Below, in pieces: positions 2,506 to 29,523 of a stretch of 64,000 bases of DNA; position 1 is the first letter of the stretch, and every line of letters begins with the position of its first letter. The notes under the pieces are model-generated. The model did no database searches. It saw only the letters and a list, made by a program, of their open reading frames with translations, and was not told where the DNA came from. Source of the stretch: Bacteroidales bacterium. Its GTDB lineage: Bacteria; Bacteroidota; Bacteroidia; Bacteroidales; UBA7332. The translations under genes and the position numbers were made by a program. Location of the stretch: positions 94,486-158,485 of the forward strand of contig JAQTZA010000006.1 in the NCBI GenBank assembly GCA_028687995.1. The letters run 5' to 3'.

Positions 2506-3210
2506 ATGGAAGAAAAATTGAATGTTCTTCTTTGTGAAGACGACGAAAATCTTGGCATGTTGCTAAGAGAGTATCTGCAAGCCAAAGGTTTTGCAGCTGA
2601 ATTGTGCCCAGACGGCGAAGCAGGTTACAAAGCTTTTATGAAAGGAAACTTCGATATTTGCGTTTTTGACGTAATGATGCCTAAAAAAGATGGATTTACA
2701 TTGGCTCAAGAAATTAGAGCAACCAATAGTGATACCCCAATTATCTTTTTGACTGCCAAAACATTGAAAGAGGATATTTTGGAAGGTTTCAAAATTGGAG
2801 CAGATGATTATATCACCAAGCCATTCTCTATGGAAGAGTTAATTCTTCGTATTGAAGCGATTCTTCGACGCATCAAAGGCAAAAAAGGGAAAGATGTACA
2901 ATCATACAAGATTGGTAAATTCTCTTTTGATACCCAAAAACAGATTCTTTCTATTGGCTCTAAAGCAACTAAATTGACTACAAAAGAGTCTGATTTGTTG
3001 AGTTTGCTTTGCGCTCACGCCAATGAAATTTTGGAAAGAAACTTTGCTTTGAAAGCAATTTGGGTAGACGATAACTATTTCAATGCACGTAGTATGGATG
3101 TTTACATCACTAAATTGCGCAAGCACCTAAAAGATGATCCAGAAATCGAAATCATCAACATCCACGGTAAAGGATATAAACTAATTGCTCCTGATGTAGA
3201 ACAAGCATAA
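2506..3210 (+). CDS. rprY: OmpR-family response regulator, RprY-like
   Basis: A 234-aa regulator with an N-terminal receiver domain (acidic pocket CEDDEN, phospho-acceptor Asp in FDVMMPKKDG, conserved Lys in DYITKPF) and a C-terminal winged-helix DNA-binding domain ending in HGKGYKLI. The ORF track begins at a TTG at 2497; the ATG at 2506 gives the usual MEEKLNVLL start and is preferred. It follows the kinase gene directly and should be phosphorylated by it. The family is strongly conserved in Bacteroidales. Target promoters cannot be read from this window. Confidence 0.9.
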   Translation: MEEKLNVLLCEDDENLGMLLREYLQAKGFAAELCPDGEAGYKAFMKGNFDICVFDVMMPKKDGFTLAQEIRATNSDTPIIFLTAKTLKEDILEGFKIGADDYITKPFSMEELILRIEAILRRIKGKKGKDVQSYKIGKFSFDTQKQILSIGSKATKLTTKESDLLSLLCAHANEILERNFALKAIWVDDNYFNARSMDVYITKLRKHLKDDPEIEIINIHGKGYKLIAPDVEQA

Positions 3211-20937: not shown

Positions 20938-21612
20938 TTATTCGCCAATCAATCGCTCCACCTCTGCCCAGTTTACTACACTCCAGAAAGCTTTGATGTA
21001 GGCTGGTCGTTTCGATTGGTATTTGAGGTAATAGGCGTGCTCCCAAACATCTAATGCTAATACAGGAACGCCTTTAACCGTTGCATCTGGCATATAAGAA
21101 TTGTCTTGATTGGCGGTTGAGGTAATCTTCAGTTTGCCTGATGCATCTTTGATTAACCAAGCCCAACCCGAGCCAAATCTAGTTGCTGCCGCTTTTTCAA
21201 ATTCCGCTTTGAAATTGTCAACACTTCCAAAATTTTCCACCAATTTTTTTTCTAGTTTGGCAGATATTTTAGTTGTTCCCGCTGGAGCCATCATGGTCCA
21301 GAATATGGCGTGATTGTAGAATCCACCACCATTATTGCGGACAGATGCCTGTACTTCGGTAGGTAGATCGTTAAGATTTTTCATCAAATCGATAATGTCC
21401 CTTTTATAAAGTTCAGGATATTTTTCTAACGATTTATTAAGCTTGTCGGTGTAAGCTGCATGGTGATTGTTGAAGTGAATATACATCGTTGTACTATCGA
21501 TATACGGTTCCAGCGCACTGTATTTGTAGGGGAGTGGCGTTTGTTTGAATTGTGCTGATACTGAAATAGCAACAACTGCCAAAAGAAGGAGAATCAAATT
21601 TATCTTTTTCAT
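20938..21612 (-). CDS. sod: Exported Fe/Mn superoxide dismutase
   Basis: A 224-aa Fe/Mn-type superoxide dismutase. Metal ligands are His46 (HFNNHHAAY), His101 (FYNHAIFW), and the Asp and His of LDVWEHAYYLKYQ. Unlike most bacterial members it begins with a signal peptide (MKKINLILLLLAVVAISVSAQ), so it should work in the periplasm or at the surface. Metal choice cannot be settled; TANQDNSYM resembles Mn or cambialistic enzymes. It is a single gene with an inverted repeat in its upstream region. With the lipoprotein MsrB-MsrA it suggests an envelope oxidative defence. Confidence 0.92.
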   Translation of the reverse strand: MKKINLILLLLAVVAISVSAQFKQTPLPYKYSALEPYIDSTTMYIHFNNHHAAYTDKLNKSLEKYPELYKRDIIDLMKNLNDLPTEVQASVRNNGGGFYNHAIFWTMMAPAGTTKISAKLEKKLVENFGSVDNFKAEFEKAAATRFGSGWAWLIKDASGKLKITSTANQDNSYMPDATVKGVPVLALDVWEHAYYLKYQSKRPAYIKAFWSVVNWAEVERLIGE

Positions 21613-21777: not shown

Positions 21778-22893
21778 TTAATACCATTTAAAAATTTTCA
21801 GCCCCACTACAAAGGTGATGATGCCAGTTGCGGATAAAACGAGAAGAGATTTCCAAATTTCCAACAATCCTGCGCCTTCGTTGAAGATGCTTCGCATACC
21901 ATCCGCAAGCATGGTCAGTGGTAGATTTTCAATGAATGTAATTGCCCACGCTGGAAAGTGATGATAGCTAAAGAATACTCCCGACAATACCATCATTGGT
22001 GTAACCACGGCATTGATTAATCCATTGCCGACTTCCGAATTGGCCGTATGTGAGGATATGAGTACCGAAATACCCGCAAAAGCGATGTTCCCCGCTATAA
22101 AGAGAAGTGCCAGAGCAATTAAATTTCCCTGAATTTGTAGGTCGAAATACCAATAAGCGAAGGCATAAAGCAGCACAGCTTCAATGATATTCATAATGAA
22201 TCGGGCGAAAATTAATGCAATCAGCAAATTCGATTTTCTCATAGGAGTTGCCACCATACGACGGAGTAATTTCTTCGAGCGACGCTCTATCAACGTGTAG
22301 CTGATTCCCCACGAAGAAGACATCATAATCCCCATGGCGATAAGTCCTGGAATCAGAAAGTCGATGTATCGTGTCCCTGTCACAGTAAGTGGTTTAATCT
22401 CCTCCTGATGCGATGCGTAATACTGTGGCCCGTTATACACAACCCCTTTTACCAATTGATAAATCAATTGAGCTTCTGCATTCACCGGATCGAAATAATA
22501 AACTAATTTGTCGTCTACCACATCTATAATCAGACTGATCGTTCCTTTTTTGAGCATTACATGCGCTTCGGCTTCAGTGCATTCGTGAAACGATAGCTTT
22601 ACATTGCCTAATTTCTCATTTTTGAGCGATAGCGCATAGTCTCCTTTTTCTTTATCGGGATAATGTTCAATAATATTTTGCAATGCTGATTTCTGAATCG
22701 TACTGGTGTTGCTGTGTTTGATGACAGCGATTTCGCGATTCAAATCTTGCTTGCTAGAGAATGCAATGCCTAATCCCCAAGCCATTAAAATGGGAAAAAC
22801 AATTCCCCAAAACAGAACGACCGGTTCGCGCACAATCTCTTTGATGTGAGCAGCTGTCAGACGATATAGTTGATGATTCTTTATCTTATTCAT
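21778..22893 (-). CDS. ABC-2 type transporter permease
   Basis: A 371-aa membrane protein with one N-terminal helix (about 25-46), an extracytoplasmic domain of about 140 residues, and five C-terminal helices, as in ABC-2 permeases of the YhhJ/LinearmycinB type. The segment GISYTLIERRSKKLLRRMVATPMRKSNLL is the conserved cytoplasmic loop of the family. It follows the ATPase gene by 68 bases on the same strand and forms an exporter with it, possibly for drugs or lipids. No membrane-fusion protein gene is nearby. Confidence 0.88.
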   Translation of the reverse strand: MNKIKNHQLYRLTAAHIKEIVREPVVLFWGIVFPILMAWGLGIAFSSKQDLNREIAVIKHSNTSTIQKSALQNIIEHYPDKEKGDYALSLKNEKLGNVKLSFHECTEAEAHVMLKKGTISLIIDVVDDKLVYYFDPVNAEAQLIYQLVKGVVYNGPQYYASHQEEIKPLTVTGTRYIDFLIPGLIAMGIMMSSSWGISYTLIERRSKKLLRRMVATPMRKSNLLIALIFARFIMNIIEAVLLYAFAYWYFDLQIQGNLIALALLFIAGNIAFAGISVLISSHTANSEVGNGLINAVVTPMMVLSGVFFSYHHFPAWAITFIENLPLTMLADGMRSIFNEGAGLLEIWKSLLVLSATGIITFVVGLKIFKWY

Positions 22894-22913: not shown

Positions 22914-22965
22914 TTAATATGCTAATTTGCTAATTTGCCAATTTCCGAATCTGCTAATTTGCTAT
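22914..22965. repeat. Degenerate 8-bp repeats between the ABC genes
   Basis: GCTAATTT recurs in 8-base register (GCTAATTT, GCTAATTT, GCCAATTT, CCGAATCT, GCTAATTT, GCT). It fills the short gap between the ATPase and permease genes and reaches the end of the ATPase frame. Confidence 0.65.
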
Positions 22966-23693
22966 TCATACAAATGCCTTCCGGTCATATTGATAAACAG
23001 CTCGTCGAGATTGCGGGCATTGTCGAAATCGCGTAGTAACTGATCTAATGGACCATCTGCCAGAATCGTTCCTTGATCCATCATCACGATGCGGTCACAA
23101 AGAAATTCTGCCTCTTCCATGTAATGGGTCGTTAAAATCAAAGAGGTGTTCTGTTCGTCTTTTAGTTTTTTTAGAATCATCCAGATTTCTCGTCGAGCAT
23201 TGGGGTCAAGCCCGGTAGTGGGTTCGTCGAGTAGCAATACCGAAGGTTTGTTGAGCAATGCGATACCAAGAGCCAATCGTTGCCGCTGTCCGCCTGAAAG
23301 CGTAGTCACGTATGCTTTTCGTTTCTCCTGCAAGCCGACTAGTTCAATTACCTCATTCACACGATCTGTTCCCAATTTATAAAAACTAGCAAAGAGTTGA
23401 CCGGTTTCAAACACTGAAAGTCGATCGATAAAGTGGGTCTCTTGCAGCGAAAGTCCAATTAACTGATGTAACTCTTTGGAGTTGTTTTTCCATGTTTTTC
23501 CAGCTATTTTTATTTCGCCACTGTCTGGATGCTGCAGTCCTTCAATCATCTCCACCATGGTGGTTTTTCCTGCACCGTTAGGCCCAAGTAGGCCTACGAA
23601 TTCACCAGGTTTGATCGTTAGATTAACGCCTTTTACAGCATGCACCTCTTTAAATGATTTTTTGACGTTACTTACTTCTACAATATATTCCAT
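22962..23693 (-). CDS. ABC transporter ATP-binding protein
   Basis: A 243-aa ATPase with Walker A GPNGAGKTT, Q-loop SLQETHF, signature LSGGQRQRL, Walker B VLLLDEPTTGLDP and the switch His in LTTHYMEEA. This is the CcmA/DrrA-type subfamily that pairs with ABC-2 permeases. It lies immediately upstream of the permease gene in the same operon. All motifs are intact. The substrate is not predictable. Confidence 0.93.
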   Translation of the reverse strand: MEYIVEVSNVKKSFKEVHAVKGVNLTIKPGEFVGLLGPNGAGKTTMVEMIEGLQHPDSGEIKIAGKTWKNNSKELHQLIGLSLQETHFIDRLSVFETGQLFASFYKLGTDRVNEVIELVGLQEKRKAYVTTLSGGQRQRLALGIALLNKPSVLLLDEPTTGLDPNARREIWMILKKLKDEQNTSLILTTHYMEEAEFLCDRIVMMDQGTILADGPLDQLLRDFDNARNLDELFINMTGRHLYE

Positions 23694-23780
23694 TTCGTTC
23701 CTATATTATTCTCAGAATGATGATGTTTTCGCTTTTTTAAAAACCATTTCATGCTCTTTTTGTTCAGATTTTTACGTTAC

Positions 23781-23816
23781 AAAAAAACGCTGACCCAATT
23801 TCTTGAGACAGCGTTT
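23781..23816 (-). terminator. Intrinsic terminator of the Cys-rich gene
   Basis: On the minus strand AAACGCTG and CAGCGTTT form a stem followed by a run of seven T, 22 bases past the stop of the gene. This supports real transcription of that small gene. Confidence 0.8.
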
Positions 23817-23837
23817 CTAAAGTTATTCGATTCTGAA

Positions 23838-24152
23838 TTATTTTTTAACTTCAGCTTTCTTTTCAGTTTTTGCGCAGCAAGCTTTTTTCTCTTCTTTTTT
23901 GCAACATTCTTTCTTTTCAGCAGCTGTGCACTCTTTCTTACCTGCATTTTTGCAGCACTCTTTTTTCTCAGCAGCAGTGCATTCTTTCTTTTCTGCTTTC
24001 GCACAACACTCTTTTTTCTCAGCTTTAGCATCTTTGCAACAAGCTTTTTTCTCTGTTTTTGCTTTCTCTGTTGGTTTTGCATCTTGCGCCATTGACAATA
24101 CTGGAGCCATCATAAATGCAGAAACAATCATTGCAACTATTAACTTTTTCAT
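23838..24152 (-). CDS. Exported Cys/Lys/Glu-rich repeat protein
   Basis: A 104-aa protein: a signal peptide (about 1-23, ending LSMAQ), then a highly charged region made almost only of K, E, A and C. Twelve cysteines occur, ten of them as CC pairs. Three tandem 17-residue units (45-61, 62-78, 79-95) follow the pattern EKKECCxxxxKKECTAA, the third ending in ACC. No recognised domain. Clustered thiols outside the cytoplasm suggest metal binding or thiol redox buffering; a structural coiled coil is another option. It has its own terminator. Other frames over it are shadows of the repeat. Confidence 0.75.
   Translation of the reverse strand: MKKLIVAMIVSAFMMAPVLSMAQDAKPTEKAKTEKKACCKDAKAEKKECCAKAEKKECTAAEKKECCKNAGKKECTAAEKKECCKKEEKKACCAKTEKKAEVKK
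23868..24020 (-). repeat. Three 51-bp coding repeats in the Cys-rich gene
   Basis: Three in-frame 51-base units encode the 17-aa EKKECC...KKEC repeats. The DNA copies are similar but not identical. Confidence 0.75.
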
Positions 24153-24272: not shown

Positions 24273-24300
24273 TAAATCAACGTTATTTAATGTTGATTTA
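24273..24300. repeat. Dyad upstream of the guaB promoter
   Basis: TAAATCAAC and its exact complement GTTGATTTA are separated by ten bases. The dyad ends 45 bases before the -7 box and is a candidate regulator site or part of an upstream RNA. Confidence 0.45.
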
Positions 24301-24369: not shown

Positions 24370-25860
<1,491 letters not shown>

Positions 25861-28832: not shown

Positions 28833-28861
28833 AAAAGAGTGGTTTTTCGTTTTGATTTTCC

Positions 28862-28869
28862 TATTTTTG
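28862..28869 (+). promoter_or_regulatory. -7 element of the CDF gene
   Basis: TATTTTTG lies 24 bases before the ATG at 28894 and inside the extended frame of the ORF track, which supports the later start. Confidence 0.45.
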
Positions 28870-28893
28870 CAGAAACTGAAAAGTAAAACACGA

Positions 28894-29523
28894 ATGGCGC
28901 ACTCACATACACATCACGAGCAGAAAACAAAATGGGTAGTGATTCTCACTGCCGTAACGATGGTTGCCGAAATATTCTTCGGCATTTCGTCTCACTCTAT
29001 GGCACTTCTCGCCGATGGAATTCACATGGGTTCGCATGTATTGGCTATTGGCCTGAGTTGGGTAGCTTATGTTTTTGTGCGTAGAATTTCTGCTGGGGCT
29101 GCTTTTAGTGGGGATAGTAAGAAAATACTATCTCTTTCTGGATATAGCAGCGGTTTGTTGCTTCTCATCTTTGCCTTTTACATCTTGATTGAAGCGGTTG
29201 AGCGAATTTTCAATCCATCAACTATTCATTTTCAAGAAGCCATTCTGGTGGCATCCATTGGTTTGCTTGTTAATATCGCGAGCGCCTTTTTGTTGCATCA
29301 CGACCACGAGCAAACGGATCACAACATCAAAGCCGCTTATATTCATGTTCTTGCAGATGCCCTCACCAGCGTGGCAGCAATAGTTGGACTCCTAGCAGCG
29401 ATGCTTTGGAATTTGATATGGATGGATGCTCTTTGCGCCATTATTAGTTCTTTTGTTATTGTGAAATGGTCAGTTGGTCTCCTTAAGCAGGCAGGAAAAA
29501 CATTGCTCGATGTGAAAGGGTAA
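28894..29523 (+). CDS. Cation diffusion facilitator, short form without C-terminal domain
   Basis: A 209-aa inner-membrane cation/proton antiporter with six hydrophobic segments. The metal-site motifs are kept: MALLADGIHMGSH in helix 2 and HVLADALTS in helix 5, with a His-rich N-terminus (AHSHTHHE) and HHDHEQTDH between helices 4 and 5. The sequence resembles DmeF-type Co/Ni/Zn exporters. It stops right after helix 6 (KTLLDVKG), so the usual cytoplasmic metal-sensing domain of about 90 residues is absent, with no sign of it in other frames downstream. The ORF track's 14 extra residues are excluded because a promoter box lies in them. Confidence 0.85.
   Translation: MAHSHTHHEQKTKWVVILTAVTMVAEIFFGISSHSMALLADGIHMGSHVLAIGLSWVAYVFVRRISAGAAFSGDSKKILSLSGYSSGLLLLIFAFYILIEAVERIFNPSTIHFQEAILVASIGLLVNIASAFLLHHDHEQTDHNIKAAYIHVLADALTSVAAIVGLLAAMLWNLIWMDALCAIISSFVIVKWSVGLLKQAGKTLLDVKG

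Follow-up and report, generated by a model that had tools for sequence, protein, structure and literature searches.

A lysine- and cysteine-repeat protein of a Bacteroidales bacterium, a probable outlying member of an unnamed exported family with a possible role as an envelope thiol buffer

Introduction

Metallothioneins, both the bacterial SmtA/BmtA type and the eukaryotic ones, are small proteins that are rich in cysteine and lysine, contain few hydrophobic residues and carry CC doublets. Bufferins and other MNIO-modified peptides are small, cysteine-rich and exported. How thiols, metals and oxidants are handled outside the inner membrane of strict and tolerant anaerobes is poorly known, and short low-complexity cysteine proteins escape current family libraries. 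Here, we analysed one such gene in a 64,000-nucleotide stretch of Bacteroidales DNA (hereafter the window). Its product resembles metallothioneins in its small size, its cysteine and lysine content, its scarcity of hydrophobic residues and its CC doublets. The family to which it probably belongs occurs in about one fifth of the sampled Bacteroidales genomes, in two settings with oxidant-detoxifying enzymes, one of which also has a likely dedicated sensor, and this makes the question testable.

The window gene and its repeats

The gene and its parts are as follows.

23838..24152, minus strand: gene of the Lys/Cys-repeat protein, predicted to be exported (104 aa, 12 Cys, ATG start)
24087..24152, minus strand: predicted type I signal peptide, residues 1-22, cleavage at SMA/QD, read from the sequence
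23862..24053, minus strand: repeat region of seven 8-9-aa units with the KK[EA]C[CT] motif, containing all 12 Cys
23778..23818, minus strand: intrinsic terminator (hairpin 23783-23818 plus U-tract), which parts the gene from the downstream ABC genes

The predicted mature form has 82 aa, with 28 Lys, 15 Glu and a net charge of about +11. The cysteines lie at residues 38, 39, 49, 50, 58, 66, 67, 75, 83, 84, 92 and 93. A sequence-only reading of this DNA had described three 17-aa repeats with 12 cysteines, and we found both: the three units are AEKKECCAKAEKKECTA, AEKKECCKNAGKKECTA and AEKKECCKKEEKKACCA, and the repeat is also visible in the DNA (period 51, 2.4 copies, 80% matches). The repeat size needs amending, however, as each 17-aa unit consists of two copies of an 8-9-aa unit (two KK[EA]C[CT] per 17 aa), which is the smallest repeat, and the repeat runs past the three units at both ends. 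The KK[EA]C[CT] motif occurs seven times in the mature sequence and at most twice in any of 5000 shuffles of it. There are 11 Cx7C/Cx8C pairs against 2.9 expected, a number reached by 0 of 5000 shuffles, and the window protein has neither CxC nor CxxC.

Differences among the three 17-aa units number 7, 10 and 10 at codon position 3, 1-2 at position 1 and 2-4 at position 2. Since they fall mainly at position 3, the frame is under protein-level selection, and a spurious reading frame was ruled out by this pattern. The signal peptide is laid out as MKK, then a hydrophobic core, then the SMA/Q cleavage site, and inspection of the N-terminus revealed no lipobox. Cleavage of signal peptides in Bacteroidetes follows a Q-rule (PMC10653852), with which the SMA/QD site seems to agree. 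Signal peptide and codon pattern together suggest that the protein is translated and exported, as had been proposed. AlphaFold, run on the single sequence, gave a mean pLDDT of 64 and broken, low-confidence helices.

The terminator that had been ascribed to the gene was confirmed as a 36-nt hairpin with a U-tract about 20 nt past the stop codon (-23.7 kcal/mol, z = -5.4), although it was missed by a simple consensus scan. Because of this hairpin and the divergent guaB upstream, the gene is probably a single-gene transcription unit. No consensus match to a Bacteroidetes-type promoter was found upstream of it, and Rfam returned nothing in or around the gene, the intergenic region included.

Genomic surroundings

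The neighbouring features of the window are these.

24382..25860, plus strand: guaB, IMP dehydrogenase, divergent neighbour, outside the system
22962..23693, minus strand: ABC transporter ATPase, downstream beyond the terminator
21778..22893, minus strand: ABC-2 permease, neighbour
20938..21612, minus strand: Mn/Fe superoxide dismutase, third gene downstream, with a signal-peptide-like N-terminus and no demonstrated link to the gene
24273..24300, no strand: inverted repeat with near-perfect 13-bp arms between the two divergent genes, AAATCAACGTTA TT TAATGTTGATTT

The superoxide dismutase is probably exported, as its N-terminus resembles a signal peptide. We rejected a conserved linkage with the ABC transporter, whose ATPase orthologues in genomes G001 and G002 have no adjoining Cys-rich gene, and likewise with guaB, which lacks the gene in G003 and G045. 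The inverted repeat is a possible operator that could act for guaB instead. Its perfect form occurs nowhere else in the genome, and it is absent upstream of guaB in G003 and G045, so no regulon could be deduced from it. A sensor kinase lies at 956-2500 of the window beside a canonical RprY at 2506-3210, which scores 440 bits (above the cut-off) and is 20 kb from the Cys gene. A cation-efflux (CDF) gene at 28852-29520 is 4.7 kb away and not adjacent. The genome's own psd is followed by an apparent pssA (named by reading), with no Cys gene.

An unnamed family in Bacteroidales

The earlier impression that the protein resembles no nameable family held up: all matches in Pfam, NCBIfam and PHROGs were of low complexity and far under the cut-offs, no metallothionein model in Pfam or NCBIfam matched, the DUF4890 domain was not found in it, and neither the PDB nor plasmids yielded a match. 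In the literature covered, which includes few subscription journals, we found neither the string KKECC nor a description of such a family. Small exported Cys-rich proteins are a familiar kind, but this family, its contexts and its spacing rule appear to be undescribed.

The first direct searches returned few relatives, namely a 64-aa protein of the congener G002, a Riemerella columbina protein, and proteins of G045 and G435; they also matched KKECC inserts in a DUF4890 protein of Prevotella and the tails of H+-pyrophosphatases. An EF-hand-like protein without cysteines (L006) from the first collection search was discarded as a composition artefact. The G045 and G435 genes come immediately after psd in a ftsH-cdsA-psd series (names by reading; psd checked by comparison), one in a genome from the window's own order and the other in a genome of a different order. 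At 60 psd loci examined (from the window genome and 59 further genomes in the order), a Cys-rich gene stood directly after psd in 8. A profile of 13 proteins, the window protein among them (A2, E<=1e-4), matched 66 loci in 64 of 295 genomes of the order. A further profile (A3) gave 6 other matches in a phylum-wide sample of 396 genomes, one of which (G078) looks psd-linked too. The weak matches in G651 and G509 were set aside as composition artefacts with no convincing Cys-rich ORF, and both loci are probably false. At one locus (L144:1501-2208) the Cys-rich domain is joined, in frame, to a segment with several membrane spans, which may be an assembly chimera.

We conclude that these are unnamed exported Lys/Cys-rich proteins, widespread in Bacteroidales, that bear no Pfam or NCBIfam name. 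The sequence-only reading had hinged on homologues with conserved cysteines; homologues exist, and most of the cysteines are kept in close pairs. The two closest pairs gave dN/dS values of about 0.24 (G007/G512) and 0.17 (G045/G633), and the window-type pair G1089/G1026 gave 0.07; as NG86 counts on short sequences these values indicate purifying selection only, and silent sites are saturated in the other pairs.

Spacing of cysteines was examined in 59 members, with the window protein left out. Cx7C and Cx8C were enriched (z = 10.2 and 6.9) and CC mildly so (z = 2.9), whereas CxC and CxxC were strongly depleted (z = -9.5 and -8.4). With redundancy removed and each protein counted once, CxC occurred in 2/53 and CxxC in 8/53, against about 36 expected. 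The thiols of the window protein are clustered, as previously described, with respect to the CC doublets, but its other cysteines are evenly spread at 8-9 residues and the family as a whole is depleted of CxC and CxxC. Even and odd cysteine counts were equally common (32 and 28 proteins), which argues against obligatory disulfide pairing. No lipobox-like motif was found in the 59 other members.

Conserved gene contexts

Two arrangements account for most of the 66 loci. At 34, psd immediately precedes the gene on its own strand (31 loci were read and 3 placed by coordinates), and at least 8 of these 34 continue with a flavodiiron O2/NO reductase gene (Pfam ODP and flavodoxin). One further locus, without psd, adjoins an apparent cdsA (by reading) and a flavodiiron gene. 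To our knowledge, psd has no known thiol role, and its neighbourhood may merely reflect read-through.

At 21 of the 66 loci the gene is divergent from an RprX-like sensor histidine kinase, followed at 10 of the 21 by OsmC on the same strand. The partner response regulator is RprY-like, at 286 bits against a cut-off of 370, and this score under the cut-off led us to regard the pair as a system paralogous to RprY. In Porphyromonas gingivalis, RprY itself has a link to oxidative stress (PMC3646045). We inspected the kinases for cysteines at L148, L150, L153, L157-L164, L166, L167, L171, L174, L176, L177 and L181-L184. One conserved cysteine (SL[NS]CL-type) lies in the periplasmic region, between the two membrane spans, in 14/15 of one subgroup, and two (ICKEVVSCIG-type) do so in 6/6 of the other. 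Oxidant-removing enzymes thus adjoin the family in both contexts, and a Cys-bearing sensor does so in one.

With the cdsA locus counted in, 56 of the 66 loci have the psd or the kinase context. The remaining 10 comprise the window gene and nine others, at least two of which (G651 and G509) have no credible Cys-rich ORF. Since those nine matches lack both contexts, we treated the contexts as common and not as defining. Several members outside the two contexts adjoin purine genes: guaB in the window, and purM and purQ by reading (L202, L203; L154, L186). This is a post hoc observation and may be chance.

Membership of the window protein

The window gene sits between guaB and the ABC-2 transporter, neither next to psd nor divergent from a kinase, so its place in the family has to be judged by sequence. 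Against a profile built without the window protein, the mature part scored 5.6 bits, a low value, while the best of 1000 composition-matched shuffles reached 2.5; with the signal peptide kept in the test, 5/1000 shuffles equalled the real score. The protein follows the family spacing rule, with 8-9 residues between cysteines, CC doublets and no CxC or CxxC. A psd-linked protein of G435 (104 aa, 12 Cys, KKACC repeats) bridges the two protein types, and the window-like proteins of G1026 and G1089, encoded beside an apparent purM (by reading), have a nearly identical signal peptide (MKKLI..MAQD). The window-type relatives (G002, G665, G478, G1026/G1089 and Riemerella) lie in varied contexts, the ABC genes of two congeners have no orthologue next to them, and Lys/Cys sequences of low complexity can arise by convergence. 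On balance, the window protein is probably an outlying member of the family.

Proposed function and alternatives

The sequence-only reading had pointed to metal binding or redox buffering in the periplasm. The family probably supplies the cell envelope with a thiol buffer, either sacrificial or metal-catching. For the window protein we favour, with a probability of roughly 0.4, a disordered, positively charged thiol buffer that acts against oxidants. Sec export and cleavage at SMA/QD would release a soluble periplasmic polythiol. Its mature chain would be mostly disordered and strongly positive, and would present 12 lysine-flanked cysteines, one every 8-9 residues, as free thiols. Neighbouring lysines would lower the thiol pKa, and the resulting thiolates would therefore scavenge oxidants, electrophiles and reactive sulfur and nitrogen species reaching the envelope. 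Such stoichiometric action would spare other envelope proteins in these mostly anaerobic bacteria. Even, lysine-flanked thiols without CxC or CxxC would seem to suit a stoichiometric buffer better than a cluster of the metallothionein kind or a thioredoxin-type site. The neighbours of the family (flavodiiron protein, OsmC and the Cys-bearing sensor kinase) lean towards redox or thiol stress. However, guaB and the ABC-2 transporter beside the window gene do not indicate stress, the cysteines of the sensor kinase could bind metal, and association with neighbours is no proof of function. A wider scheme is doubtful, namely a Bacteroidales polythiol system in which the disordered Lys/Cys-repeat family would stand, in many genomes, under the Cys-bearing RprX-like two-component sensor, would be coupled to OsmC or flavodiiron O2/NO detoxification, and would serve as a glutathione-like extracytoplasmic low-molecular thiol buffer, with the window protein as a repeat-expanded and relocated member.

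The main alternative, which we hold to be a serious though tentative possibility, is a soft-metal buffer of the envelope, a periplasmic analogue of metallothionein whose thiolates would bind Cu(I), Zn, Cd, Hg or As(III). In its favour are the abundance of Cys and Lys, the CC doublets, and two Cys-rich loci outside the order that adjoin heavy-metal-type proteins: at L200 these are small, exported and marked by CGMC and CEMHPEV motifs, and at L007 the neighbour is a GMHCGSC protein (motifs by reading). The CDF gene of the window would also fit, but it is not adjacent to the Cys gene, no metal transporter or metal regulator adjoins the family in the psd or kinase contexts, the usual metal-cluster spacings CxC and CxxC are depleted, and Pfam gave no metallothionein match. 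Neither metal binding nor buffering against oxidants explains the psd link. That link, and the conserved place after psd, would be accounted for by a structural or cross-linking protein, as it would mirror membrane lipids: inter-chain disulfides or lysine charge would bind it to the envelope (phospholipid, lipopolysaccharide or peptidoglycan), in keeping with a strongly positive net charge (about +6 as the family median and about +11 for the window protein) and with repeats that could polymerise. The other main context, however, is a sensor kinase with OsmC and not lipid synthesis, and in the window genome it is an apparent pssA that follows psd; we consider this role rather unlikely.

It is improbable that the gene is a recent repeat expansion or an orphan without a conserved role, its family likeness being compositional convergence. 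The missing orthologues beside the ABC genes of the two congeners, the weak profile scores and the varied contexts of the window-type relatives would agree with that account; the third-position bias among the repeats, the Q-rule signal peptide, the terminator, a residue order beyond composition and the low dN/dS of G1089/G1026 speak against it. We give hardly any credence to a bufferin-type copper-binding peptide modified by an MNIO (DUF692) enzyme, small, exported and Cys-rich as the protein appears to be, because the MNIO family (PF05114) was found in 0/15 genomes (the window genome and 14 others); its absence from the window genome led us to reject this identity.

Comparison with known systems

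A thiol buffer of the envelope against oxidants remains our preferred reading, for a protein that departs from each of the described systems nearest to it. It has in common with bufferins a signal peptide, richness in cysteine and small size, but its genome lacks the MNIO enzyme. Unlike metallothioneins, it is predicted to be exported, has cysteines every 8-9 residues with no CxC or CxxC, and matches no Pfam model. The exported Prevotella DUF4890 (Spy-like) protein (L005:4593-5354) has an insert of four EKKECCKKDAA-type repeats with the KKECC of the window protein; there the repeat is inside a protein with a folded DUF4890 domain, which the window protein lacks. KKxCC also recurs in the Cys-rich C-terminal tails of HppA membrane H+-pyrophosphatases from two Bacteroidota (L007:2973-5303 and L026:3013-5658), tails that presumably face the periplasm. 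In L007, the GMHCGSC heavy-metal-type gene lies just upstream of the H+-pyrophosphatase gene. In these enzymes KKxCC is a tail on an integral membrane protein, whereas in the window it makes up the repeats of a free protein.
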